DNA of 64,000 bases, taken from contig CP098528.1 of assembly GCA_030440445.1 (NCBI GenBank), positions 1,674,001 to 1,738,000 on the forward strand, read 5' to 3'. Origin of the DNA: Halomonas sp. KG2. GTDB lineage: Bacteria; Pseudomonadota; Gammaproteobacteria; Pseudomonadales; Halomonadaceae. Below are positions 2 to 15,748 of this stretch, piece by piece (position 1 is the stretch's first letter; each line of letters opens with the position of its first letter). The notes below the pieces were generated by a model. It did no database searches, was not told the DNA's origin, and saw only the letters and a program-made list of their open reading frames with translations. The position numbers and the translations under genes are program-made.

Positions 2-1039
2 ATGTGGGCCGTGCATGGCGGCGGCTTCTATCATAATCAGAAATATGCTACCAGCCCGGAAAAGCTGCCTGATGACCTCCACTGGTCTTTCTGGAAAGCT
101 TATACCACTTGGTTATCTGGCTTCGCTTTATTCATCATTTTGTACATGTTTAATCCTGGCTTTTATTTGGTTAATCCCAACAGTAGCTGGGAGTGGGCTG
201 CCAATATGACCGGCTGGCAGGCCAACGTTTTGGCGCTGACCTTCTTGCTGCTGGGGTGGGTGGTCTATAACGAAATGTGTAAACGCATCAGCCCCAACAT
301 GGAGCGCGATGGCCTATTAAGTATTGGTGTTGCGATCATGATGGTGGTAGTCGCGTATCTGAGTACTCATATGTTCTCAGGTCGTGCCGCATTTCTATTG
401 ACCGGGGCTGTTATGGCAACAGCGATGTCTGCCAACGTGTTCTTCTGGATCATTCCTGGGCAGCGCCGCATTGTTAAGGCGATGAAAGCTGGCGAAACGC
501 CAAATCCGTTAGACGGCAAACGTGGTAAGCAACGCTCGGTACACAATACGTACTTTACGTTACCCGTTGTTTTATTAATGATCAGTAACCACTACTCCTT
601 TGCATACTCTCACGCCTATGCATGGATCATCATGGCATTGCTGATTTTTGCGGGTGCCTTAATTCGTCAGTATTTCGTGTTGATGCACGCTGGGAAAATA
701 CGGCCTGGTTATCCTGCGGCAGGTGTCGTCTTGATTATGGTGGCGTTTTGGATAGGGATGCCAGCTAACCAACAAGCTAATGCTGGTGCAGAGAGTGGGA
801 CAGATATTACTGACGTGCAGGCGGTTATTGAGCAGCGCTGCGTTGCGTGCCATGCCCAGTCGCCAACACAGCCTGGTTTTTCTGCTCCTCCTGCGGGCTT
901 TGCCTACGATAACCTTGAGCAAATTTTGCATCACAAAGAGAGTATTCAGCAGGTCGTGGCCAGTGGATACATGCCCCTTGGCAACATGACCAATATGACA
1001 GATGAAGAGCGCGCTTTGATTGGAGAGTGGTCTGAGTAA
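2..1039 (+). CDS. puuD: Urate hydroxylase PuuD, C-terminal part (cut by window edge)
   Basis: Membrane-bound urate oxidase of the PuuD type, which oxidises urate to 5-hydroxyisourate and passes electrons to its own c-type cytochrome domain. The visible part has several hydrophobic helices (about residues 38-55, 75-90, 105-122, 130-152, 185-222, 240-253 of this fragment), then a periplasmic haem domain with CVACH (C280, C283, H284) and a likely axial Met in GYMPLGN (M324). The WAVHGGGFY stretch at the very start is an internal motif of the family, so roughly 60-70 N-terminal residues lie left of the window and the ATG at base 2 is not the true start. It opens the ureide/glyoxylate region that follows. 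Confidence 0.9.
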   Translation: MWAVHGGGFYHNQKYATSPEKLPDDLHWSFWKAYTTWLSGFALFIILYMFNPGFYLVNPNSSWEWAANMTGWQANVLALTFLLLGWVVYNEMCKRISPNMERDGLLSIGVAIMMVVVAYLSTHMFSGRAAFLLTGAVMATAMSANVFFWIIPGQRRIVKAMKAGETPNPLDGKRGKQRSVHNTYFTLPVVLLMISNHYSFAYSHAYAWIIMALLIFAGALIRQYFVLMHAGKIRPGYPAAGVVLIMVAFWIGMPANQQANAGAESGTDITDVQAVIEQRCVACHAQSPTQPGFSAPPAGFAYDNLEQILHHKESIQQVVASGYMPLGNMTNMTDEERALIGEWSE

Positions 1040-1231: not shown

Positions 1232-2029
1232 ATGAGTGAAAAGGAAAAAAAGCATTTAATTCCCGCGCTTGAACGAGGGCTGACGATTTTAATGGAACTC
1301 AATCGTCATCATCGTGAAATGAGTTTTGCTGAGATCGTCAAACGCGTTGGTTATCCCCAGTCGACGTCGTATCGCGCAGTACAGACCTTGGAGCATATGG
1401 GGTTTCTACGCCATCACCCGGTCACTGGATTGTATTCGCTGGGTGTTAACGTGCTAAAGCTGGGCTTTGAATATGTGGCCTCATTGGATGTTGTGCAGGT
1501 AGGCCATCCTGTTATTGAGTCGCTATGCGAGCAGACCGGCTGCTCAAGTCATATTGCCGTTCGCGATGGAAGGGATGCCGTTTATGTGGCCCGTGTGGGT
1601 GCCACTAACGCCACGATTCGTCGCGTTAGTGTAGGAACACGAATTCCACTGCACTGTACGTCACTAGGGCGACTACTGCTGACAGATCTCTCGAAAGAGG
1701 AGTTTGAATCGCTCTATCCTGACGACCAACTACTTAATAAGGAGCTTGGTGCACCGATTCGGCGTGATGTGCTGTGGGACTTAGTTCAGGAAGACCGTCA
1801 GCGTGGTTATGTCATTGCAGATTCTTACTATCACTTTGGTATTTCATCGATTGCCTACCCGCTCTACAACCATGATGGGGTAGTGGAGGGCGTCGTTAGT
1901 ATCATGGTGCCTGTGCATGAATTTGCCGAAGATGAGCGAACCAAGCTGCAAGCGCTGGTGCAAGAGGCCGCGAGAACAATCTCCGACATGCTCGGGCACG
2001 ATCAAGTCCTTGCGAAACGCGATGGCTAG
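1232..2029 (+). CDS. IclR-family transcriptional regulator
   Basis: A 265-residue regulator with an N-terminal winged helix-turn-helix (about residues 10-70, including SFAEIVKRVGYPQSTSYRAV) and a C-terminal IclR effector domain (about 80-255). The IclR relatives AllR and GclR control glyoxylate and allantoin genes, and this gene lies directly before gcl-hyi-glxR, which makes it the likely local regulator. An IclR-type palindrome sits in the next spacer (2257-2271). The ATG start follows a weak GAAGTGAG ribosome site. Small-molecule ligand is unknown; glyoxylate is a guess from the neighbours. Confidence 0.88.
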   Translation: MSEKEKKHLIPALERGLTILMELNRHHREMSFAEIVKRVGYPQSTSYRAVQTLEHMGFLRHHPVTGLYSLGVNVLKLGFEYVASLDVVQVGHPVIESLCEQTGCSSHIAVRDGRDAVYVARVGATNATIRRVSVGTRIPLHCTSLGRLLLTDLSKEEFESLYPDDQLLNKELGAPIRRDVLWDLVQEDRQRGYVIADSYYHFGISSIAYPLYNHDGVVEGVVSIMVPVHEFAEDERTKLQALVQEAARTISDMLGHDQVLAKRDG

Positions 2030-2361: not shown

Positions 2362-2381
2362 CTCTTCGAGGAGAAGTTGTG

Positions 2382-4169
2382 ATGGCTAAAATGACAGCTG
2401 CAGAAGCCGCCATTCACGTCCTGAAAAAAGAAGGTGTTGATGTTGCCTTTGGTGTGCCAGGTGCTGCGATCAACCCTTTCTACGCTGCGATGCGTAAAGT
2501 GGGGGGCGTAGATCACGTGTTAGCACGCCACGTGGAAGGCGCCTCACACATGGCGGAAGGGTATACCCGCACAACCGCTGGCAACATTGGTGTGTGTATC
2601 GGTACTTCTGGCCCCGCAGGCACGGATATGATTACGGGCCTGTATTCCGCCAGTGCTGATTCAATTCCGATTCTATGTATCACTGGCCAAGCACCTCGCT
2701 CCAAGATGCATAAAGAAGACTTCCAGGCCGTCGATATTCAGGCGATTGCTGGCCCGGTGACCAAGTGGTCCGTCACGGTGATGGAACCTGCCCAGGTACC
2801 GCGCGCGTTCCAGAAAGCCTTCCAGCTTATGCGTTCTAGCCGTCCAGGGCCGGTATTGATCGATCTTCCCATCGATGTACAGATGAGCGAAATCGAGTTT
2901 GATCCAGACACCTACGAATCACTTCCGGCTTATAAACCCTCAGCATCCCGTGCCCAAATTGAAAAAGCACTGACGCTGCTCAACGAAGCCGATAAGCCGC
3001 TGATCGTGGCCGGTGGCGGTATCATCAATGCCGATGCTGCTGAGCAATTAGTTGAATTTGCTGAGCTAACCGGCATACCGGTGATCCCGACGCTGATGGG
3101 GTGGGGAACGATCCCTGATGACCACCCGTTAATGGCAGGCATGGTGGGGCTGCAAACGTCGCACCGATACGGCAATGCGACCATGTTGGCCTCTGACTTT
3201 GTCATGGGGATTGGTAATCGTTGGGCTAACCGACACACCGGCAATGTCGAAACGTATACAAAAGATAGAAAGTTTGTTCATGTTGATATCGAGCCTACGC
3301 AAATAGGTCGTATTTTTGGACCTGACTACGGCATCGTTTCTGACGCAAAGCTTGCCCTAGACCTGTTTATCGATGTCGCGCGTGAAATGAAGGCCAACGG
3401 ACAACTTAAAAACCGTAGTGCCTGGGCGGAAGAGTGTCAGGAGCGTAAGCGCACGCTACTGCGCAAAACGCACTTCGATAATGTGCCGGTGAAACCCCAG
3501 CGTGTTTACGAAGAGATGAACAAGGTTTTTGGCAAAAATGCGCGCTATATCAGCACCATCGGTTTGTCGCAGATTGCCGGCGCTCAGTTCCTGCATGTGT
3601 ACAAGCCTCGTCACTGGATTAACTGTGGTCAAGCTGGGCCACTAGGCTGGACAGTGCCTGCAGCACTGGGTGTTTGCCGTGCCGATCCTGATGCCGAAGT
3701 GGTTGCGCTGTCAGGCGATTACGACTTCCAGTTCATGGTCGAAGAGCTAGCGGTTGGGGCACAGTTTAACTTGCCGTATATCCACGTGCTGGTGAACAAC
3801 TCCTATCTCGGTTTGATTCGCCAGGCCCAGCGTGGCTTCGACATGGACTACTGTGTCCAGCTGTCGTTCAAGAACATCAACTATACCGACGAAGAAGCGG
3901 CGCTCGCTGAGTACGGCGTAGATCACGTGTCGGTTGCTGAAGGCCTTGGCTGTAAAGCGCTACGTGTCACTACACCCGATGAGATTGCACCTGCGTTAGA
4001 AAAAGCGCGTGAGCTAATGCGCCAATACCGTGTGCCGGTCGTGGTGGAAATCATTCTAGAGCGGGTTACCAATATCTCGATGGGCACTGACCTTGATGGG
4101 GTTAATGAGTTCGAAGCGTTAGCTGAAAACCTTACCGATGCACCGAGTTCTATTGCCAGCCTGACGTAA
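2382..4169 (+). CDS. gcl: Glyoxylate carboligase (tartronate-semialdehyde synthase)
   Basis: Thiamine-diphosphate enzyme that joins two glyoxylates into tartronate semialdehyde with loss of CO2. It resembles E. coli Gcl along its whole 595-residue length, from the MAKM start through [24 protein letters not shown], the QAGPLGWT region and the C-terminal ERVTNISMG. Residue 51 is Val in RHVEGA, where most ThDP enzymes have Glu; this substitution is typical of the family. The ATG at 2382 is chosen over an in-frame GTG at 2379 because GAGGAG is 8 bases upstream. First gene of gcl-hyi-glxR-glycerate kinase. Confidence 0.97.
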
Positions 4170-4237
4170 TGCACCGAGGTGCTTCCAGGCAAGTCGCTGA
4201 AGTCGTTATTAAGACGCTAAAACGTTAGGAGAACACT

Positions 4238-5014
4238 ATGGCTAAGTTTGCCGCGAATCTCAGTATGCTGTTCACTGAAGTCGATTTTCTTGACCGCTTT
4301 GAGGCCGCCGCAAAGGCGGGCTTTAAAGGGGTTGAGTACCTTTTTCCCTATGACTATGCGGCAGCTGACATCAAGCAGCGCTTGGATGCGAATGGCCTAA
4401 CCCAAGTGCTGCACAACTTACCTGCGGGAGATTGGGGAGCAGGCGAGCGAGGCATTGCTTGTCATCCCGACCGGGTAGAAGAGTTTCGTGCCGGTGTGGA
4501 TAAAGCGATCGACTATGCCACTACGCTTGAGTGCAAGCAGGTGAACTGCCTAGCGGGTATTCAGCCTGAGGGCGTTAGTGATGCTGAAGCTCACCGTACC
4601 TTGGTCGAAAACCTTCGCTACGCGGCCGAAAAACTCAAAGCAGCCGGCATTTTGCTGCTTGCAGAACCTATCAATACCCGTGACATTCCAGGCTTTTTCC
4701 TTAATCGCACCGAGCAGGCGTTGGCACTTTTTGACGAAGTCGGCAGCGATAACTTAAAGCTGCAGTATGACATCTACCACATGCAAATTATGGAGGGTGA
4801 TCTTGCGCCCACTATTGAAAAGCATTTTGCACGTATCGCTCACGTGCAGTTGGCGGACAACCCCGGGCGCCATGAGCCAGGAACGGGTGAGATCAATTAT
4901 CCCTTCTTATTTAGCCACCTGCAGCAGCTTGGCTATGACGGCTGGATCGGCTGCGAGTACAAGCCCAAGACCACGACGGTAGAAGGTTTAGGTTGGTTAG
5001 ACAAAACGCGTTAA
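4238..5014 (+). CDS. hyi: Hydroxypyruvate isomerase
   Basis: TIM-barrel isomerase of 258 residues, the same length as E. coli Hyi, interconverting hydroxypyruvate and tartronate semialdehyde. The N-terminus MAKFAANLSMLFTEV and the metal-site segments around LLAEPIN (Glu), YDIYHMQ (Asp/His), QLADNPGRHEPGTGEI and GCEYKP match the family. TAGGAGAACACT precedes the ATG. It lies 68 bases after gcl on the same strand, as in other gcl operons. Confidence 0.95.
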   Translation: MAKFAANLSMLFTEVDFLDRFEAAAKAGFKGVEYLFPYDYAAADIKQRLDANGLTQVLHNLPAGDWGAGERGIACHPDRVEEFRAGVDKAIDYATTLECKQVNCLAGIQPEGVSDAEAHRTLVENLRYAAEKLKAAGILLLAEPINTRDIPGFFLNRTEQALALFDEVGSDNLKLQYDIYHMQIMEGDLAPTIEKHFARIAHVQLADNPGRHEPGTGEINYPFLFSHLQQLGYDGWIGCEYKPKTTTVEGLGWLDKTR

Positions 5015-5123
5015 CCCTGTGTGACTTAAAACAGGCAGGTGAGTAGATAGTCGTTAACTCAGGAAATATAAATCATTTAGAAACAATAGGTTGGTTTCTA
5101 AAAGACGCGAATGGAGAACAATT

Positions 5124-6008
5124 ATGAGTAAGATTGGTTTTATTGGCTTAGGCATTATGGGTCGTCCTATGGCGGGGCACCTGCTCGACGCTGGTCACTC
5201 GTTAGTGACTGTTAAACGCGGCACTTTGGATGCTGCGCTTGCCGAAAAAGGCATGAGTGAAGTCGCTTCACCCAAAGCGGTGGCTGAAGCGTCTGACGTC
5301 ATTATCACCATGGTGCCCGACACGCCCGATGTCGAAAGTGTGTTATTTGGTGAGGAAGGCGTGATTGAAGGCCTGAAGCCCGGCACTCTGGTGATTGATA
5401 TGAGTTCCATTGCCCCGATGCAGACTCAGGCATTTGCCAAGCGCATTACCGATGCGGGCGGAGAGTTTGTCGATGCGCCGGTTTCTGGTGGTGAAGGTGG
5501 TGCAATTAACGCTGCGCTTACCATCATGGTGGGCGCAACAACGGAAGGGTTTGAGCGAGCCAAGCCATATCTGGACGTTGTTGGGAAGACGATTACCCAC
5601 ATCGGCGGTCATGGTGCAGGTCAGACGTGTAAAGTGGCCAACCAGATTGTGGTTGCGCTAACCATTGAAGCGGTGGCAGAAGGGTTGTTATTTGCCTCTA
5701 AAGCCGGTGCTGATGTCGCTAAAGTGCGTGAATCACTGATGGGCGGTTTAGCTCAATCGAAAATCCTTGATGTTCATGGCGAGCGCATGATCAAGCGCAC
5801 CTTTGAGCCTGGATTCCGCGTTCGTCTGCACCAGAAAGATCTCAACTTGGCGTTAGAGGGTGCCAGGACGTTAAATCTGTCATTGCCAGGCACCGCCAAT
5901 GCACAGCAGCTGTTCCAAGCATGTGTTGCCAACGGGGGCCAGGATTGGGATCACGCAGGTATTGTGCGCGCTTTAGAGAAGCTAGCAGACCATGAGGTAG
6001 GCCAATAA
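5124..6008 (+). CDS. glxR: 2-hydroxy-3-oxopropionate (tartronate semialdehyde) reductase
   Basis: Beta-hydroxyacid dehydrogenase of about 294 residues that reduces tartronate semialdehyde to D-glycerate. It has the N-terminal Rossmann motif GFIGLGIMGRPMAGHL, the substrate-binding DAPVSGGEGGA segment, and the catalytic Lys region GQTCKVANQI. The start MSKIGF at 5124 has GGAG 7 bases upstream; an 11-residue upstream extension has no such site and does not fit the family. It follows hyi and precedes glycerate kinase. Confidence 0.95.
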   Translation: MSKIGFIGLGIMGRPMAGHLLDAGHSLVTVKRGTLDAALAEKGMSEVASPKAVAEASDVIITMVPDTPDVESVLFGEEGVIEGLKPGTLVIDMSSIAPMQTQAFAKRITDAGGEFVDAPVSGGEGGAINAALTIMVGATTEGFERAKPYLDVVGKTITHIGGHGAGQTCKVANQIVVALTIEAVAEGLLFASKAGADVAKVRESLMGGLAQSKILDVHGERMIKRTFEPGFRVRLHQKDLNLALEGARTLNLSLPGTANAQQLFQACVANGGQDWDHAGIVRALEKLADHEVGQ

Positions 6009-6021
6009 CGCGCCTTTGTCA

Positions 6022-6061
6022 GGCAGGCCAGCGTCTGTTGGCCTGCCATTAAGCTCTTTTT
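6022..6061 (+). terminator. Hairpin after glxR, likely terminator or attenuator
   Basis: The arms GGCAGGCCA (6022-6030) and TGGCCTGCC (6039-6047) form a 9-bp stem with an 8-base loop, with a short T-tract at 6057-6061. The gap between stem and T-tract is long, so it may only reduce read-through into the kinase gene. Confidence 0.5.
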
Positions 6062-6150
6062 GCTAAGCCTTAAGTTCTTTTTACTGAGCTTTCCAAGCGC
6101 TGTTTTTTTGTTCTTTTCTAAGCTCCTTTCTGAGCCCTTTTCCTGATCCC
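6049..6150 (+). repeat. Degenerate pyrimidine-rich repeats between glxR and glycerate kinase
   Basis: The spacer repeats a loose unit of about 20-25 bases built on TAAGCTCTTTTTGCTAAGCC, TAAGTTCTTTTTACTGAGCT and later diverged copies. It is non-coding on both strands. This is one of several degenerate tandem-repeat spacers in the window. Confidence 0.5.
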
Positions 6151-6168
6151 TGCCCGAGGAGTCTTTTG

Positions 6169-7491
6169 ATGAATTCCCTTGTTCGCTTGGCGCCTTTTAC
6201 CAGTGAAGAGGCGACCCGCCAGTGGCTGAATCAACTGGCCGAAACGGCCATTGCTGCGGTACATCCTGATAGCTTATTAACTGCCCAGTTGCCTGAAAAA
6301 CCGCCAGGCCGAACTGTCGTCGTGGGCGCGGGTAAGGCCGCCGCCGCCATGGCGCGCGCATTAGAGTTGGCGTGGGAAAAACGCGCTCGTGAGTCAGGCG
6401 AAGAGGTCGACTTAACAGGCGTAGTAGTGACCCGTTATCAGCATGGGGCAGCCTGTCGCTATATCGATGTACTGGAAGCCTCTCATCCAATGCCTGATGC
6501 GCTGGGTGAGCAAGCCGCTAAGCGCATGCTTGATGAAGTAAAAGGCCTGGGTGAAGACGATCAAGTGATCGCACTTATCTCCGGCGGCGGCTCCGCGTTA
6601 ATGACCCTGCCGGCGGACGGCATTTCGTTAGCAGACAAACAGGCTCTGAATAAGGCGCTGCTTCGCTGCGGTGCACCGATCCGCGAAATCAACACCGTAA
6701 GACGCCATTTGTCTGCAATTAAAGGCGGGCGGTTGGCCACTGCAGCGCACCCTGCTCAAGTGGTGACGCTACTTATTTCGGATGTTCCTGGTGACGTGCC
6801 TTCCTTAATTGCCTCAGGCCCGACGCTGCCGGATAACACAACGTCGTTAGATGCATTGGCAATTTTAAACCGCCATGAGATTGAGGTGCCTGAGCATGTG
6901 AAACGCCATTTAATGGCCGATCATCGTGCGCCTCAGACCTGGAACCAAGGATTTGCACGGGACAAATCGACTATCCTAGCCCGCGCGCGCGACGCACTGA
7001 AGGCCGCCCAGCTCAGTGCCGAAGAGAGTGGCCTAGAGGTAAGAGTGTTAGGTGATGATCTTGAGGGTGAAGCAAGAGATTTAGGCATTGCCCAAGGGCG
7101 TATGGCGTGCAAGTTGCAGTCTGAAATTACTCGTCCGCTGCTAGTGCTGTCAGGTGGCGAAACCAGCGTTACCGTGCGTGGTAATGGTCGAGGAGGGCGC
7201 AATGTTGAGTACCTGCTGGGGCTTTTTGATACGCTAAAAGGGTGTGATGGCATTTATGCGATTGCTATTGATACCGATGGAATTGATGGCTCTGAAGATA
7301 ACGCAGGCGCGTTAATTGGGCCTGAATGCTGGCAGCGGGCTAAAGCATTAACGCTTTCTGCGCAGGATTACCTCGCCCGTAATGATGCGTACAGTTTCTT
7401 TGACGCTTTAGATGACCTTGTGGTTACGGGGCCAACCCGAACCAATGTTAACGATTTCCGAGCGATTCTTATTCTACCCAACCCGTCGTAA
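6169..7491 (+). CDS. Glycerate 2-kinase (MOFRL/TtuD family)
   Basis: A 440-residue kinase that phosphorylates D-glycerate to 2-phosphoglycerate and so feeds the pathway into lower glycolysis. It has an N-terminal DUF4147 domain (GAGKAAAAMARALE, EASHPMPD, ISGGGSALMTLP, LISDVPGD) and a C-terminal MOFRL domain (LSGGETSVTV, NVEYLL, DTDGIDG, GPTRTNVND). The ATG at 6169 follows CGAGGAG; a TTG one codon earlier is less likely. Called TtuD or GckA in other bacteria; I leave the symbol open. It closes the gcl-hyi-glxR pathway. Confidence 0.93.
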   Translation: MNSLVRLAPFTSEEATRQWLNQLAETAIAAVHPDSLLTAQLPEKPPGRTVVVGAGKAAAAMARALELAWEKRARESGEEVDLTGVVVTRYQHGAACRYIDVLEASHPMPDALGEQAAKRMLDEVKGLGEDDQVIALISGGGSALMTLPADGISLADKQALNKALLRCGAPIREINTVRRHLSAIKGGRLATAAHPAQVVTLLISDVPGDVPSLIASGPTLPDNTTSLDALAILNRHEIEVPEHVKRHLMADHRAPQTWNQGFARDKSTILARARDALKAAQLSAEESGLEVRVLGDDLEGEARDLGIAQGRMACKLQSEITRPLLVLSGGETSVTVRGNGRGGRNVEYLLGLFDTLKGCDGIYAIAIDTDGIDGSEDNAGALIGPECWQRAKALTLSAQDYLARNDAYSFFDALDDLVVTGPTRTNVNDFRAILILPNPS

Positions 7492-7614: not shown

Positions 7615-8346
7615 ATGACCCTCGGCTGGCACAAGAAAGGTTTTACCAAAACGAAAGAAGGTCGCGTTAGCGATCAAGATATTGTTGAACACATCCGGTC
7701 TGCGGTACTGATGCAGCGACTGGCACCAAATACAAAACTGCCCGAAGTCACCATCGGCGATGTATTTGGAGTCAGCCGTTCAGTGGTGCGTAAAGCGTTA
7801 ACACGGCTTGATGCTGAACATGTCATCGACCAACGGCCGAACCAGGTCGCCCGCGTCAGAGCGCCTTCGATTGACGAAACGCGAGAGACGTTTTCCGCGC
7901 GTAGGTTAGTGGAAGGTGAGATTGTCTCGCTGTTGGCGGGTAAGCTGGATGTGGCGACTTACAAAGCTTTAGAGAAGCAGGTCGCCCTTGAAAAGCAGGC
8001 TTTTGAAAACAGTGACGAACCGTCACGCATTGAGCATTCCCTCAACATTCATCATCTCCTTGCCCAGCATGCCCCTAATCGTATCTTGGGCGCGATGCTG
8101 ACCGATCTCGTCTTGCGAACGTCAATTGTCATCGCTCTCTATAAGCGTCCAGGATTGTCTTCTTGCTACTTGGAAGGAGACCATGCCAACTTGCTTGCAC
8201 ACTTAGCGAGTGGTGATGCACAGGCGGCTAAGCAGGCGATATACACGCACCTTAATAGCTTAGAGTCTTTGCTGGTGCTGTCGTCTCAAGAGCCGGAAAA
8301 CGACGACTTGATGACTATTCTAGGCGGTAAATCTGTTAGGGCGTGA
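7615..8346 (+). CDS. GntR-family (FCD) transcriptional regulator
   Basis: A 243-residue regulator with an N-terminal winged helix (about residues 22-85: IRSAVLMQRLAPNTKLPE, GVSRSVVRKALTRLDAEHVI) and a C-terminal FCD effector domain of helices (about 95-225) carrying His residues that usually bind a metal. It sits at the end of the glyoxylate genes, so control of ureide or glyoxylate genes is likely. FCD regulators often bind short palindromes centred on GTATAC or similar, and such a palindrome stands before uraD/tsx. That pairing is an inference from layout. Confidence 0.85.
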   Translation: MTLGWHKKGFTKTKEGRVSDQDIVEHIRSAVLMQRLAPNTKLPEVTIGDVFGVSRSVVRKALTRLDAEHVIDQRPNQVARVRAPSIDETRETFSARRLVEGEIVSLLAGKLDVATYKALEKQVALEKQAFENSDEPSRIEHSLNIHHLLAQHAPNRILGAMLTDLVLRTSIVIALYKRPGLSSCYLEGDHANLLAHLASGDAQAAKQAIYTHLNSLESLLVLSSQEPENDDLMTILGGKSVRA

Positions 8347-8485: not shown

Positions 8486-10210
8486 TTACAGCAGCAATCG
8501 GCGAATATCCGTCAGCACATCGGCCAGGAAGGCCGTAAAGCGGGCGGCATCGGCACCGTTAATCGCCCGGTGATCATAAGAGAGCGATAGCGGCATCATT
8601 AAGCGCGGTTGGAAGGCACTGCCATCCCATACCGGTTTCATCTGCGCTTTCGATACTCCCAGGATCGCCACTTCCGGCGCATTAACGATCGGTGTGAACG
8701 CGGTTCCACCAATCGAGCCAAGGCTCGAAATGGTGAAGCAGCCACCGGTCATCTCATCACGCTTAAGTTTCTTGGTTTGCGCTTTCTTGCCTAGCTCCGC
8801 CATCTCCTTGGCTATCTCAATCAAGGATTTCTTATCGGCGTTGCGCACTACCGGCACCATCAGGCCATCAGGCGTATCCACGGCAATCCCAATATGCACG
8901 TAGTTTTTCCATACCAGTGTTTCGCCGTCGCCTTTCAGGCTGACGTTGAACTGGGGGAATTTACGCAGTGCAAAGGCACAGGCTTTGACCATAAACGGCA
9001 ACGGTGTCAGCTTAGCGCCTTGGGCTTCGGCCTCGGCTTTCATGGCCTTACGGAAGCTTTCAAGCTCGGTAATGTCGGCTTCGTCAAACTGCGTCACGTG
9101 AGGCACATTGAGCCAGCTGCGGTGCAGATTGGTCGCGCCCATCTTGAGCAGACGGCCCATCGGCTTCTCTTCGACATCGCCAAACTGACTGAAGTCGACT
9201 TCCGGTATCGCGGGAATGCCAGCACCACCACTCGCCGCTGGAGCAGCCGCTGTTTGTGCTTTACCCTGGTTGGCAATGGCCTGCTTCACGTAAGCCTGCA
9301 CATCCTCTTTCAGCACCCGATCTTTCGGACCACTAGGCTTAACAAGACCGAGGTCTACGCCGAGCTCACGTGCCAGCATGCGTACTGCTGGACCTGCGTG
9401 TACCAGCTTACTATCCCGCGGTTGGTAATCAGCGATTTGTGCTTCCGGACTCGGAGTGCCTTCAGGGGAAGGCGCTTGTTTTGCTGGTGCTTCAGCGACA
9501 GGTTTTTCAACGGCCGGCTCTTCAGCAGCGGCTTGCGGCTCGTTGCTGGCTTGGCTAGCGGCCTGCGGTGCGTCTTCTTCAGCCGATGCATCACCGCCGT
9601 CGCCAGCGATCTCCATCTGGCCGATCACGTCGCCTTCCGAGACGCTATCGCCTTCTTTGACCGTGAGCGCAACGATCTTACCGCCGTGCGGGCTGGGCAC
9701 GTCCATGGAGGCTTTGTCAGACTCCAGGGTGATCAGGGTGTCTTCGGCGTTAACCTCATCACCGGCGCTGACCGCGACTTCAATGATTTCAACGCTGTCG
9801 GAACCGCCCAGGTCAGGCACCTTGATGTCAACGGTCTGCTTGCCGCCGCTGGCTTTTTTCGCTGCCGGTGCGGGGACTTGTTCCTGCGTCGGTTTGGCGT
9901 CTTTCGCTGGCGCGTCGTTGGGCTGGCTGTCAGACGCGGGGGCTGACGTCTCTTCGCCACCGTCTGTGCCGCCTTCAACCTCCAGCTCAACGATGTCGTC
10001 GCCTTCGGAGACGCTATCGCCTTCTTTGACCAGCACTTTGAGCACCTTGCCGCCTTTCGGGGCCGGGACGTCCATGCTGGCTTTGTCGGATTCCAGGGTG
10101 ATTAGGGTGTCTTCCGCTTCAATGACGTCGCCTTCTGACACCGCAATCTCGATGATTTCGACATCGGTATCGCCACCGATATCGGGAACTTTGATGATTT
10201 CGCTACTCAA
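8486..10210 (-). CDS. aceF: Pyruvate dehydrogenase E2, dihydrolipoamide acetyltransferase
   Basis: Core acetyltransferase of the pyruvate dehydrogenase complex, 574 residues. Two lipoyl domains (about 3-77 and 127-200) carry the lipoylated Lys in ESDKAS (K43 and K166), followed by Ala/Pro/Glu-rich linkers, a peripheral subunit-binding domain (about 268-308) and the catalytic domain (about 345-574). The active-site motif reads DHRAING rather than DHRVIDG; Azotobacter-type E2 proteins also have Asn here. The two lipoyl coding segments form a clear direct repeat about 0.37 kb apart. It lies 58 bases downstream of aceE; lipoamide dehydrogenase is not in the window. Confidence 0.96.
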   Translation of the reverse strand: MSSEIIKVPDIGGDTDVEIIEIAVSEGDVIEAEDTLITLESDKASMDVPAPKGGKVLKVLVKEGDSVSEGDDIVELEVEGGTDGGEETSAPASDSQPNDAPAKDAKPTQEQVPAPAAKKASGGKQTVDIKVPDLGGSDSVEIIEVAVSAGDEVNAEDTLITLESDKASMDVPSPHGGKIVALTVKEGDSVSEGDVIGQMEIAGDGGDASAEEDAPQAASQASNEPQAAAEEPAVEKPVAEAPAKQAPSPEGTPSPEAQIADYQPRDSKLVHAGPAVRMLARELGVDLGLVKPSGPKDRVLKEDVQAYVKQAIANQGKAQTAAAPAASGGAGIPAIPEVDFSQFGDVEEKPMGRLLKMGATNLHRSWLNVPHVTQFDEADITELESFRKAMKAEAEAQGAKLTPLPFMVKACAFALRKFPQFNVSLKGDGETLVWKNYVHIGIAVDTPDGLMVPVVRNADKKSLIEIAKEMAELGKKAQTKKLKRDEMTGGCFTISSLGSIGGTAFTPIVNAPEVAILGVSKAQMKPVWDGSAFQPRLMMPLSLSYDHRAINGADAARFTAFLADVLTDIRRLLL

Positions 10211-10268: not shown

Positions 10269-12941
10269 TTAGCTGGTCAGCGGGTTCGGCTTGTTGGCGT
10301 CAATGCCATATTTCTTCAGCGCCTCGCCGACGTGCTTACGATCAAGCTCACCGCGGTCTGCCAGCGCACGTAGCGCCGCCACGGTGACGAAGTAGCGGTC
10401 TACTTCAAAGAAGTAGCGCAGCTTCTCGCGGGTGTCGGAACGGCCAAAGCCGTCCGTGCCCAGCACGGTGTACTCGCTGGGTACCCAGGCACGCACCTGG
10501 TCGGCGTAGAGCTTCATGTAGTCGGTGGAGGCAATCACTGGGCCGTCACGACCTTCCAGGCACTTCGTCACGTGGGGCTTGTTGGCCTCAGCATCCGGGT
10601 TCAGGAAGCCTTCACGCTCCAACAGCAGCGCTTCGCGACGCAGCTCGTTAAAGCTGGTCACACTCCAGATATCCGCGCCAATGCCCCAGTCGTTGGCCAA
10701 CAGCTCAGCAGCCGCTTCGACTTCGCGCAGGATGGTGCCGGAGCCCATCAGCTGCACGCGGCCTTTGTCGCCCTGCGTTTCGTTGAGCAGGTACATGCCT
10801 TTGACGATATCGTCGGTGGGCACGCTCTCAAGCGCGGGGTGCTCGTAGTTTTCGTTCATCACCGTCAGGTAGTAGAAGCAGTTCTCTTTGTCGGAGAACA
10901 TGCGCTTCAGACCATCCTGGAGGATGACCGCCACTTCGTGGGCGTAGGTCGGGTCGTAGCTGCGGCAGTTGGGGATGGTGGAGGCTTGAATCAAGCTGTG
11001 GCCATCCTGGTGCTGCAGGCCTTCACCGTTGAGCGTGGTACGCCCGGCGGTGCCGCCGACCATAAAGCCGCGGGCTTGCAGGTCACCGGCCGCCCAGGCC
11101 AAGTCACCAATGCGCTGGAAGCCGAACATCGAATAGTAGACGTAGAACGGCAGCAGGGTGACGTTGTTGTTGCTGTAGGACGTCGCGGCGGCAATCCATG
11201 CGGACATGGCACCGGCTTCACTAATCCCTTCTTCGAGAATCTGGCCTTTCTGGTCCTCGCGGTAGAACATGATCTGGCCTTTATCGACCGGCTCATACTT
11301 CTGACCTTCCGAGGTGTAGATGCCGAGCTGACGGAACATGCCTTCCATACCGAAGGTACGCGCTTCGTCAGGAATAATCGGGACGACATGTTTGCCGAGC
11401 TTCTTATCTTTCACCAGGCCGTTCAGTACGCGCACGAACGCCATGGTGGTGGAGACTTCGCGCCCTTTGGAGCCGACCATTTGCGAGGCAAAGGTTTTGT
11501 CTTCCAGGCTGGGGATCTCCAGCGCCTCAAAGTCACTGCGGCGGCTCGGCAGGTAGCCGTTTAAGCGTTCCCGCTGCAGGTGCATGTATTTCAGCTCGGG
11601 AGAGTCTTCTTCCGGCTTGTAATAGGGCACATCTTTGAGCTGCTCGTCGGTGAGCGGAATACCGAAGCGGTCGCGGAATTTACGCAACGCCTCGTACTCC
11701 ATGCTCTTGACCTGGTGGGACTCGTTGGCGGCTTCGCCATCGCCGCTGCCCATGCCGTAGCCTTTGACGGTGTGCGCCAGAATGACCGTGGGCTTACCGT
11801 TGGTCTGGTTGACCGCTTCGTGGTAGGCCGCGTAGACCTTGAACGGGTCGTGGCCACCGCGGTTGAGCTTCCAGATGTCTTCATCAGACAGGTCGTTGAC
11901 CATCGCTTCGGTTTCGGGGTACTTACCGAAGAAGTGCTCACGGGTGTACGAACCGCCGTTGGCCTTGTAGTTCTGGTACTCACCGTCGACCGCTTCATCC
12001 ATGCGTTTTTGCAGGATGCCTTTTTTGTCCTTCTCGAACAGCGGATCCCAGTGACGCCCCCAGACGACCTTGATGACGTTCCAACCGGCACCACGGAACA
12101 CGCCTTCGAACTCGTCCATGACGCGGGAGTTACCGCGTACCGGACCGTCTAAGCGCTGGAGGTTGCAGTTGATAACGAAGATCAGGTTATCGAGGTTTTC
12201 ACGCCCGGCCAGGGAAATGGCGCCCAGGGACTCCGGCTCATCACACTCGCCGTCGCCCATAAAGCACCAGATCTTACGGTCGTACATGTCTTTCAGCTCA
12301 CGGTGATGCAGGTACTTCATCACGTGGGCTTGATAGATGGCCTGAATCGGGCCAAGGCCCATGGACACCGTAGGGAACTGCCAGTAGTCCGGCATCAGCC
12401 ACGGGTGGGGGTAGGAAGAGAGGCCATCACCGTCGACTTCGCGACGGAATTTGTCCATCTGCTCTTCTGATAAACGGCCTTCTAGGTAGGAACGCGCGTA
12501 AATACCCGGGGCAACATGGCCCTGGATGTAAATCAGGTCGCCTTCAAAGTCGCCTTTGGGGGCGCGGAAGAAGTGGTTAAAGCCGACATCGTACAGCGTG
12601 GCCGACGACATAAAGCTGGCAATGTGGCCGCCCAGCCCGGGGTTGGCGCGGTTATTACGGATGACCTGGGCAATGGCGTTGTAACGAATCAACGACCGAA
12701 TGCGGCGCTCCATAAACAGATCGCCGGGCATCGGTGCTTCGCGATGCACAGGGATCGTATTCCGGTGCGGGGTTGTCACCGAGAAGGGTACCTTCATCCC
12801 GTCCCGGCGCAGGCGATCCGCCAAGCGGGTCATCAGGTAGCGGGCACGATCTTCGCCCTCACGATCCAGTACTGATTCCAGGGATTCCAGCCACTCCGTG
12901 GTTTCGAGCGGATCGAGATCTTCTCTTGTCTCCAGACTCAT
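10269..12941 (-). CDS. aceE: Pyruvate dehydrogenase E1 component (homodimeric type)
   Basis: Decarboxylating ThDP subunit of the pyruvate dehydrogenase complex, 890 residues, close to the 887 of E. coli AceE. It shows the ThDP motif GDGECDEPES ending in NLDNLIFVINCNLQRLDG and long stretches typical of the homodimeric enzyme (GHIASFMSSATLYDVGFNHF, HTVKGYGMGSG). The start MSLETRED at 12941 has GGAGAG nearby upstream; an extension of 20 residues to 13001 lacks family similarity. It is co-oriented with aceF and lies downstream of the interrupted uraD. Confidence 0.97.
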   Translation of the reverse strand: MSLETREDLDPLETTEWLESLESVLDREGEDRARYLMTRLADRLRRDGMKVPFSVTTPHRNTIPVHREAPMPGDLFMERRIRSLIRYNAIAQVIRNNRANPGLGGHIASFMSSATLYDVGFNHFFRAPKGDFEGDLIYIQGHVAPGIYARSYLEGRLSEEQMDKFRREVDGDGLSSYPHPWLMPDYWQFPTVSMGLGPIQAIYQAHVMKYLHHRELKDMYDRKIWCFMGDGECDEPESLGAISLAGRENLDNLIFVINCNLQRLDGPVRGNSRVMDEFEGVFRGAGWNVIKVVWGRHWDPLFEKDKKGILQKRMDEAVDGEYQNYKANGGSYTREHFFGKYPETEAMVNDLSDEDIWKLNRGGHDPFKVYAAYHEAVNQTNGKPTVILAHTVKGYGMGSGDGEAANESHQVKSMEYEALRKFRDRFGIPLTDEQLKDVPYYKPEEDSPELKYMHLQRERLNGYLPSRRSDFEALEIPSLEDKTFASQMVGSKGREVSTTMAFVRVLNGLVKDKKLGKHVVPIIPDEARTFGMEGMFRQLGIYTSEGQKYEPVDKGQIMFYREDQKGQILEEGISEAGAMSAWIAAATSYSNNNVTLLPFYVYYSMFGFQRIGDLAWAAGDLQARGFMVGGTAGRTTLNGEGLQHQDGHSLIQASTIPNCRSYDPTYAHEVAVILQDGLKRMFSDKENCFYYLTVMNENYEHPALESVPTDDIVKGMYLLNETQGDKGRVQLMGSGTILREVEAAAELLANDWGIGADIWSVTSFNELRREALLLEREGFLNPDAEANKPHVTKCLEGRDGPVIASTDYMKLYADQVRAWVPSEYTVLGTDGFGRSDTREKLRYFFEVDRYFVTVAALRALADRGELDRKHVGEALKKYGIDANKPNPLTS

Positions 12942-12979
12942 AGAGGTCTCTCCGAATGACGATAAAAGGTAAGCCTCAC

Positions 12980-13011
12980 AGCCTGAAGGGCCGAGCACCA
13001 CAGCTCAGGCT
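12980..13011 (-). other. Inverted repeat in the aceE leader
   Basis: Arms AGCCTGA and TCAGGCT (7 bp) are separated by 18 bases in the spacer between the uraD end and aceE. The transcript strand has only a short T4 after the stem, so it may be a weak uraD terminator or an aceE leader hairpin. Confidence 0.3.
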
Positions 13012-13199
13012 GAAAGGAAAAAACAAGCGCTAAGCGCGTGAGAATTACGCTGCCTCGGCCGCACGCATGTGCAGGCGAAAGCGCGCTATCTGGATGATTT
13101 GCTCAATAGCGGTTTGACGCTCGGTAGCGGCGTCGTTTTCAAGGCGCTTTTCGAACGCGTAAAGGATGGCGTGTCGATCAAGCCCTTTAACAGCAATCA

Positions 13200-14301
13200 C
13201 CTGGATTCATAGAATAACCGCAGCACTTTGGACACCACGGTGGAGGCAGGAGGGTCAGCGCCGGTACCCTTCTCGGCTCACCGACCAAAGTGAAGCAGAG
13301 CATGGGATACCGACAGCTGACCCAGACCCAACGATACCAGATCCACGCCCGCTATGACTTGGGCGTGAGCCAGCGTCAAATCGGCAGAGAGCTAGGAATC
13401 CACAGCAGCACGGTCAGCCGTGAGCTGCGTCGTAACGCCACTTCTGGTGGCTACGACCCCGAGCAGGCCCAGTCCCTCAGTGATCACCGCCGCCGCACCG
13501 CCTGGAAGTGGACGAAGCGCTTGCCCAGCCTGATCACCGCCGTTGCCGACCGGCTGCGAGAGGAGTGGAGTCCGGAGCAGATCAGCGGCTTCATGGCACC
13601 GTTGGCCGGCATAGGCGTCAGTCACCAGTGGATCTACTCCTTGATCTGGGATGACAGAGCGCAAGGTGGCGATCTATGGCGGCACCTCCGCCAACCGAAG
13701 CGTCGCAGCAAGCATCGGGCTCAGGCCAAGAGCGCTGGGCTTGGCAAGATCCCCAGCCGCGTGGGCATTGAGCATCGCCCGGCAGAGGTCGATGCCAGGC
13801 TCGTCATCGGGCACTGGGAAGGCGACACCGTCATTCAGGGGCATAAGCAATCGGGGCTGGTGACGCTGGTAGAGCGCCGTAGCGGCTATCTGCTGGCGGC
13901 GAGGTTGCCCAGGGTCTCAGCGGAGCTGACGCAAGCGGCCATGATCCGGCTGTTGAAGCCTCGCCGGGGTGCTGTGAAGACCATCACCCTAGACAACGGC
14001 TCGGAGTTCGCCGGCCACATAGCCGTAGGCAAGGCGGTGACCGCAAAGACCTACTTTTGCGATCCCTACTGCTCTGGCCAGCGTGGGAGCAACGAGAATA
14101 CCAATGGCTTGATACGGCAGTACTTCCCCAAGGGAACAGACTTCCGCCAGGTCACCGATGCCGAGCTGCGCAAGGTGGTCGAGAAACTAAACGACCGCCC
14201 TCGAAAGCGACTCGGTTACCGGACACCGGCACAGGTGTTTCTGGGGGAGTACTCAGGAGCCCTGGACACAGCAGGTGCTGCACTTATTGCTTGAATTCAG
14301 G
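13200..14301 (+). mobile_element. IS30-family insertion sequence, 1102 bp, complete
   Basis: Its boundaries come from imperfect terminal inverted repeats (left 13200-13226, right 14275-14301 reversed) that match at 21 of 27 positions, both starting CCTG and sharing ATTCA, AATAA and GCAGCAC blocks. A 3-bp direct repeat TCA flanks them (13197-13199 and 14302-14304), fitting the 2-3 bp duplications of IS30-family elements. One transposase gene fills most of the element. It lies inside uraD in the opposite orientation. Confidence 0.92.
13302..14294 (+). CDS. IS30-family transposase
   Basis: DDE transposase of about 330 residues. The N-terminal helix-turn-helix has the IS30 pattern (LTQTQRYQIHARYDLGVSQRQIGRELGIHSSTVSREL read in pieces), followed by the catalytic core with Asp in GHWEGDTV, Asp in TLDNGSEF and Glu in SNENTNGLIRQYFPKGTDF. 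The frame is intact, so the element could be active. ATG at 13302 is preferred; a GTG at 13290 is also in frame and neither has a strong ribosome site. The stop codon lies inside the right terminal repeat. Confidence 0.94.
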   Translation: MGYRQLTQTQRYQIHARYDLGVSQRQIGRELGIHSSTVSRELRRNATSGGYDPEQAQSLSDHRRRTAWKWTKRLPSLITAVADRLREEWSPEQISGFMAPLAGIGVSHQWIYSLIWDDRAQGGDLWRHLRQPKRRSKHRAQAKSAGLGKIPSRVGIEHRPAEVDARLVIGHWEGDTVIQGHKQSGLVTLVERRSGYLLAARLPRVSAELTQAAMIRLLKPRRGAVKTITLDNGSEFAGHIAVGKAVTAKTYFCDPYCSGQRGSNENTNGLIRQYFPKGTDFRQVTDAELRKVVEKLNDRPRKRLGYRTPAQVFLGEYSGALDTAGAALIA

Positions 14302-14713
14302 TCACAAAGGGGAAGCCGAACTTATCTTGATAGGCCTGATTGAGGCGTTGAAAGCGTTCAAACTCTTCGGTTGAGCACTGATCTAGCCCCGCACCAGCCT
14401 GTTCGCGAGTGGAATCCTGGGTTAGCTCGCCCGCGAGAGCTGCTTTCCCGGCAAGGTCTGGGTGAGCGCGGATGACCGCAATTTGCTGATCAATATCAGC
14501 ACCCTTAAGCACATTGCCCATGCAGTCAGCTAGCACATCTGGGTCATCGTGTTGGTCGGTAAACCCCTGTTTCCAGGCGTTTTCGGCGACCCAGGGTGAA
14601 TGTTCAAAAACGTCCCCGTAATGCTCAAGAAAGGCGTCTAAGCCAAGGCGGCTGGGGCGAGCTGCTTCTAAAATACGCGACATTGTATTCTCCATTTGTA
14701 TTTGTTTATCTGT

Positions 14714-14731
14714 TTTATTGTATACAATAAA
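14714..14731. promoter_or_regulatory. 18-bp perfect palindrome between uraD and tsx-like gene
   Basis: TTTATTGTATACAATAAA is its own reverse complement. It lies 31 bases upstream of the uraD start and about 150 bases upstream of the divergent channel gene. The TTGTATACAA core is typical of a dimeric repressor site, and a partial copy (GTATACAA, 2320-2327) occurs before gcl. The GntR/FCD regulator at 7615-8346 is the best local candidate for binding it. Confidence 0.65.
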
Positions 14732-14881: not shown

Positions 14882-15748
14882 ATGTTGAAGAGCAATCGAG
14901 CAGTGGCAACGTATCTGGCGATAGGCGCTTCTCTTGGCACTATCTCGGCAGGTGCCCAGGCAGCGACATGGAGCGATACGTTTGTGGGTTATCGCTATGG
15001 AACGCAGTTTACTGAGCCGAATAACCCAGAGAACATAGAGAAGCATATTCTCCAGTTCACCCATGTTAGTGGTTACTCACTGGGCCAAAACTTTTTAAAT
15101 CTGGACGTGCTTCAATCCAGCAGCCAAGACCCCGTCAATAACAGTGACTCAGGGGCGACGGAAGCCTATCTGACATACCGTCATCAACTCCATGGAGGCG
15201 GCGTGTTCAATGAGCCCATCGCTTTCGGGCCCGTCAAAGACATGGCGCTGACGTTTGGGTTTGACCTAAACACCAAAAATACTGGCTTTGCACCACGTAA
15301 ACGCCAATTAGTGGTGGGGCCAACATTTAAATTTGATGTGCCGAGAGGCTTTGTGGATCTAAGCCTGTTCTATAGCCGTGAGTGGAACCACTGCGGCTTG
15401 CCACCTTGTGGGCTGCCAGGAAATCGGAACAGCATTTCGTTTGATCCCTATTACCAAATTAACTTGGCCTGGGGGCTGCCGTTTGAAGCGGCGACGTTAC
15501 CGCTAAAATTCCAAGGGTTTTATAACTACAACAGCGAAAAAGGAGACGACTACTTTGGGGAAGCGACCGAGCCTGAGCAGTTAATGCGCACCTCGCTGAT
15601 GCTAGACGTCGGGCAGGTTGCATGGGGCGCGGAAAACTCCTTATGGATGGGCGTCGGTTATGAGTATTGGCGCAACAAATTCGGAAACCACAGCCAACCG
15701 GGTGTCGATACCGATGCCATGACCTTAAATTTGGAGTGGCACTTCTAA
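14882..15748 (+). CDS. Tsx/OmpK-like outer membrane nucleoside channel
   Basis: Outer-membrane protein of about 288 residues with a signal peptide (residues 1-28, ending SAGAQA), then alternating beta-strands and the terminal aromatic residue WHF that outer-membrane barrels need. ATWSDTFVGYRYG and NLDVLQSS match the nucleoside-specific channel (Tsx) family. Divergent from uraD in a purine region, so uptake of purine nucleosides or purine breakdown compounds is likely. ATG at 14882 follows AAAGGG; an upstream in-frame extension of 47 residues lacks a signal peptide. Confidence 0.82.
   Translation: MLKSNRAVATYLAIGASLGTISAGAQAATWSDTFVGYRYGTQFTEPNNPENIEKHILQFTHVSGYSLGQNFLNLDVLQSSSQDPVNNSDSGATEAYLTYRHQLHGGGVFNEPIAFGPVKDMALTFGFDLNTKNTGFAPRKRQLVVGPTFKFDVPRGFVDLSLFYSREWNHCGLPPCGLPGNRNSISFDPYYQINLAWGLPFEAATLPLKFQGFYNYNSEKGDDYFGEATEPEQLMRTSLMLDVGQVAWGAENSLWMGVGYEYWRNKFGNHSQPGVDTDAMTLNLEWHF

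Follow-up and report, generated by a model that had tools for sequence, protein, structure and literature searches.

In the salt-loving bacterium Halomonas sp. KG2 (genome G000 of our set), the gene uraD-A is split by an insertion sequence of the IS30 family with a TCA target duplication, and it forms part of a second purine island that carries duplicate aceE and aceF genes. In the reading that we prefer, with a probability of about 0.86, uraD-A is the second OHCU decarboxylase gene of this accessory island, disrupted by a recent IS30 transposition, and an intact paralogue, uraD-B, would carry the step. Taken by itself, the event is unexceptional: an IS has recently inserted into a gene that has a paralogue. 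The window analysed is a stretch of 64,000 nucleotides (C1:1674001-1738000 of the KG2 genome), whose relevant features are collected in Table 1, and the comparison covered 82 Halomonas and Vreelandella genomes, KG2 included. Among the relatives were V. alkaliphila (G058), V. venusta (G101), V. andesensis (G011), V. nigrificans (G004) and V. sedimenti (G028), and further V. zhaodongensis (G102), H. alkaliantarctica (G076), Halomonas sp. SpR8 (G092) and an assembly from a sheep-gut metagenome (G086).

Table 1. Features of the window around the insertion in uraD-A (positions within the window).
Feature	Position	Strand	Evidence and remarks
puuD-A, 3' part (start left of the window)	2..1039	+	PF06181, 327 bits; 74% identical to puuD-B
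IclR-type regulator	1232..2029	+	PF01614, PF09339
gcl, hyi, glxR and glycerate kinase genes	2379..7491	+	family matches
GntR-type regulator with FCD domain	7615..8346	+	PF00392, PF07729
aceF-A, accessory E2	8486..10210	-	TIGR01348, 659 bits; two DKA lipoyl motifs
aceE-A, accessory pyruvate dehydrogenase E1	10269..12941	-	TIGR00759, 1434 bits (on the longer ORF 10269-13001)
uraD-A, 3' part	13045..13199	-	50 codons and stop, plus 2 bases; start severed; PF09349, 41 bits (cut-off 24), profile 113-154 of 155
Target-site duplication TCA, left copy	13197..13199		
IS30-family insertion sequence, 1102 bp	13200..14301	+	seven identical genome copies
IS30-family transposase, 334 aa	13290..14294	+	NF033563, 288 bits (cut-off 80); PF13936, PF00665
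Target-site duplication TCA, right copy	14302..14304		
uraD-A, 5' part	14302..14683	-	TIGR03164, 150 bits (cut-off 96), profile 4-112; PF09349, profile 3-112
Perfect palindrome ATTGTATACAAT	14717..14728		33 bp before the uraD-A start; candidate operator
Outer-membrane-protein-like gene	14882..15748	+	divergent from uraD-A; neighbours uraD-A in carriers

The two parts of uraD-A together span the UraD family profile without overlap in the profile search, and the family matches to UraD and to the transposase bear out the preliminary description of the window, which had seen a uraD gene split by an IS30 element with UraD encoded on the minus strand at both sides. The 534 bases that it had reconstructed for the gene before insertion also hold (1639 - 1102 - 3 = 534). 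Its statement that the insertion is the sole visible lesion agrees with the finding that both fragments are open and align gap-free with the uninterrupted gene of V. venusta (G101), to which the N part is 97.9% and the C part 100% (155/155) identical, while its remark that the N-terminal frame reads two codons into the element is correct if the stop is counted, the frame adding one Thr codon before it. Alignment across the junction, named there as a check, was found uninterrupted and without a gap in 15/15 copies of relatives, at identities from 65/74 to 84/85. As it stands, uraD-A is a broken member of the family, its reading frame being discontinuous after residue 127, and the break point lies inside KFGFPFVIAVKG, a stretch common to both kinds of uraD, whose counterpart in the intact paralogue can be aligned with enzymes of known structure (the solved relatives of that paralogue being 2o8i, Atu2327, and 2o70). 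Because the cut falls in this common stretch, neither part of UraD-A should be active.

The element resembles its family in structure as well as in its transposase, which has the HTH and the rve integrase core of the IS30 type. IS30 elements have terminal inverted repeats of about 20-30 bp and duplicate 2-3 bp of their target; here the terminal inverted repeats are imperfect (20 of the first 26 positions identical) and the target duplication is 3 bp long. Within the 4.57-Mb genome, assembled into four contigs, there are seven copies that are 100% identical and have seven different flanks, six of them with a 3-bp target duplication and one with none. The copy without a duplication lies at C1:2388482-2389583, where a flanking deletion or rearrangement has perhaps occurred. 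Five further matches, partly broken, are 71-87% identical, and a cluster of such older, partly broken relatives (71-87%) is located at C1:2976252-2981222. Across the 81 remaining genomes of the genus, the closest full-length match is 85% identical and short fragments of the element's ends reach about 93%, in both cases among the matches listed, since scoring was confined to about five candidates per genome and weaker matches may have been missed. Since seven identical copies are present here and the best full-length match elsewhere in the genus, among those listed, is 85%, the insertion looks recent, as the preliminary description had also held, and the element appears to have multiplied recently in this strain. 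Relatives on the Halomonas sp. KO116 plasmids NZ_CP011053.1 and NZ_CP011054.1 share transposase family, length, terminal repeats and the 3-bp duplication, but are only 83% and 79% identical in DNA, respectively.

Seven identical copies of 1.1 kb are a classic source of misassembly, and one of them does not show a target duplication, so the junction might be suspected of being an artefact of assembling a repeated element; however, both flanks here belong to one gene and the 3-bp duplication sits exactly at the ends of the element, the identical copies are embedded in seven different flanks with a duplication at 6/7, and the assembly, in four contigs, is given as 99.99% complete, which together leave an artefact with hardly any probability. 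Under the preferred reading, the recently multiplied IS30-type element would have transposed into uraD-A, duplicated 3 bp and severed the protein inside KFGFPFVIAVKG, with the expected consequences of a lower uraD dosage and possibly of lost read-through transcription into aceE-A and aceF-A.

On the basis of the window, it had been predicted that the strain lacks enzymatic OHCU decarboxylation, and this is not supported, given a second, intact uraD. The latter, uraD-B, was found by a PF09349 search of the genome at C1:3461054-3461524, a search for a second copy having been proposed in the same description; it is an open frame with a full family match (TIGR03164, 204 bits) and lies in the main purine cluster together with puuD-B (PF06181, 404 bits), HIU hydrolase, allantoinase PuuE, a racemase-like gene and two transporters of the purine/allantoin permease family (PF02133). 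Since uraD-B is intact in this cluster, OHCU decarboxylation should continue, and the intact gene would keep the conversion of OHCU to (S)-allantoin going enzymatically. The break in uraD-A therefore probably costs little, a second intact copy being present. Loss of the enzymatic step, with OHCU decaying to racemic allantoin, draws on the certain interruption of uraD-A and on spontaneous decay, for which the available text of PMC4562309 gives a half-life of 9.6 min and reports racemic allantoin from urate oxidase alone in vitro; it is nevertheless very improbable given the open and fully matching uraD-B, whose purine cluster is present in most genomes of the genus with context examined. As an account of the insertion, loss of a pathway step was discarded on discovery of the second uraD. 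OHCU decarboxylase might nevertheless be in short supply if uraD-B is silent under conditions that induce only the accessory island. An altered stereochemistry of allantoin, likewise foreseen, is unlikely to matter given the racemase-like gene, which matches hydantoin/allantoin racemases of known structure (3qvj, E=1.9e-88; 5lfd, E=5.8e-44). The expectation that puuD and the glyoxylate genes are kept proved true, puuD even being present in two copies, both matching PF06181. The correction of the window-only prediction indicates that paralogues need to be checked in the whole genome before metabolic loss is called.

A uraD match was obtained in 78/82 genomes, with both kinds, A and B, in 16 of them; no match was found in G063 and G081 (given as 100% and 99% complete) in this 82-genome search, and G089, with uraD fragments at contig ends only, was excluded from later counts. 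In the contexts examined, a comparison that left out 18 single-copy genomes, kind A lies between aceE and the outer-membrane-protein-like gene and kind B mostly beside HIU hydrolase and a phasin gene, although in G023 and G086 the phasin gene was seen beside kind B but no HIU hydrolase there. The two KG2 genes differ accordingly, as uraD-A is interrupted and adjoins aceE, and the main copy is found instead beside HIU hydrolase. In G071 the only uraD is of kind A, between the outer-membrane-protein-like gene and aceE (G071:C90:14000-26000). Six draft assemblies (G004, G028, G058, G086, G101 and G102) have a contig end just past uraD-A, probably due to aceE being a repeat.

The relatives provide a natural series, in which some genomes hold both kinds of uraD, kind A has been damaged in three different ways, and one genome possesses kind A alone. 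Three of the 17 uraD-A copies are broken, each differently: that of KG2 holds the IS30 element, that of V. andesensis (G011) a stop codon within the conserved STREQ motif, and that of G086 a frameshift, which could be an assembly error given its metagenome source. No stop codon was found in full-length B or single uraD copies of the 82 genomes. Broken A copies are over-represented in Fisher tests, which ignore shared ancestry, at 3/16 versus 0/77 genomes with a full-length B or single copy (p=0.004), or p=0.028 with G086 counted as unbroken (2/16); calculated by hand, moving G071 to kind A gives 3/17 versus 0/76 (p=0.005) and leaving out G086 gives 2/16 versus 0/76 (p=0.029). On the other hand, the unbroken copies of uraD-A are under purifying selection, the median dN/dS being 0.090 for uraD-A versus 0.066 for uraD-B, with A higher in 18 of the 28 pairs kept (28/78 genome pairs, the others being saturated or valueless, with G092 left out and the G011 stop codon skipped). 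Because it is the sole uraD in G071 and its median dN/dS is 0.090, uraD-A is not junk in the genomes that carry it.

In a tree of 72 uraD sequences, 71 of them from the genus (G071 and the broken A copy of G086 being left out and the G011 stop masked as X), 15 A sequences form one clade (support 0.936) that is separate from B and has the single copies of G030 and G078 as its sister; the exact placement of this clade is unsure owing to long branches. A recent local duplication of uraD was considered and rejected, as the A and B proteins are 66% identical and the A sequences make up a separate clade. This topology does no more than suggest that uraD-A was acquired from a lineage resembling G030.

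The island in which uraD-A resides has the same order in KG2, G083 and G077, namely a xanthine/uracil-type permease, HIU hydrolase, puuD, the IclR-type regulator, gcl, hyi, glxR, glycerate kinase and the GntR-type regulator, followed in the opposite direction by aceF, aceE and uraD-A. The remainder of puuD-A was found left of the window (locus L054), where transposase genes (rve, rve_3), which we take to be IS3-like, stand beside the island permease (L054 15139-16274). For the glycerate kinase gene two NCBIfam models matched, both below their cut-offs, while the product of the gene divergent from uraD-A showed no Pfam or NCBIfam match and is presumed to be outer-membrane-protein-like from its secretion-signal-like start. 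As in the PuuD urate oxidase pathway, to the extent that the available text of PMC4562309 sets it out, puuD, HIU hydrolase and uraD occur here, each twice, but the second set is located on an island with gcl-hyi-glxR-glycerate kinase and duplicate aceEF. This accessory purine island with its apparently homogenised spare aceEF is of more interest than the insertion, and a literature search, with subscription journals mostly outside its coverage, found no paper on an accessory purine island with duplicate aceEF under gene conversion.

The second aceE of KG2, aceE-B, is located at C1:3504525-3507194. Among the 16 genomes with both kinds of uraD, nine have two full copies of aceE and the others one, fragments or none, a pattern that collapse of a repeat would produce in draft assemblies. 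In the rest of the genus a single aceE predominates; a distant second copy (60-65%) is present in G012, G036, G082, G088 and G089, and G071 has two (90% and 89%). In the aceE tree the A and B copies pair by genome, within-genome copies being more alike than orthologues, in 8/9 genomes, G092 being the exception, and since they do so, gene conversion of aceE is likely, and aceE-A and aceE-B have probably been homogenised in this way. Plain identity shows the same pairing in 7/9, with G092 failing and KG2 tied, its own copies being 97.57% identical against 97.64% to the best B orthologue, a weak signal. For aceF, the number of DKA lipoyl motifs differs between the copies, with two in aceF-A in 7/8 genomes (one in G092) and three in aceF-B in 8/8, and the comparison was for this reason made on the last 1020 nt; here the copies pair by genome in 3/8 (G021, G023 and G092) and not in the other five. 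Conversion at the 3' end of aceF is patchy, and we claim it for aceE alone.

Upstream of uraD-A, the palindrome ATTGTATACAAT has a single occurrence in the 4.57-Mb genome, and its core TTGTATACAA precedes uraD-A in 16 genomes as well as in G071. With up to one mismatch, the core also occurs between uraD-B and HIU hydrolase in 40 of the 43 loci measured (44 tried), versus 18/860 random stretches of equal lengths, while a chance scan for it in the window alone, with two mismatches allowed, was not significant. The palindrome is a putative operator, with a GntR/FCD-type purine regulator as its likely reader.

Such an operator would fit a different emphasis, in which the insertion acts mainly by polarity and the element has uncoupled a purine-induced operon of uraD-A, aceE-A and aceF-A. 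The genes uraD-A and aceE-A lie on the same strand with a gap of 103-141 bp in 9/9 genomes measured (103 bp from stop to start in KG2), the operator-like core precedes uraD-A in its carriers, the transposase of the element is read in the opposite direction to the three genes, and aceE-A lacks the long conserved upstream region of aceE-B, because the stretch common to the A and B copies starts just 25 bp before the aceE start in 7/7 genomes measured and leaves uraD outside. However, the gap is partly conserved and may contain a promoter, aceE-A is intact though uraD-A is broken, and a consensus scan for minus-strand promoters found none, not even that of uraD-A; the fold of the gap, assessed for a terminator, was unremarkable (z -1.12). 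Judged from these sequence features, a mainly polar effect is possible, though we place it below even odds. Its fuller form appears somewhat more doubtful still: uraD-A would lead a purine-inducible uraD-aceE-aceF operon, encoding a second pyruvate dehydrogenase, on an island running from urate to acetyl-CoA, conversion would keep aceE near-identical while promoter, uraD and lipoyl domains differ, and IS30 would have cut the purine control.

Besides departing from the pairing by genome, G092 carries an aceE-A that is 92.5% identical in DNA to that of KG2, closer than its neighbouring genes suggest. Both this gene and the 3' end of uraD-A in G092 resemble KG2 much more closely than the genes around them do, a hint that exchange between species may have taken place.
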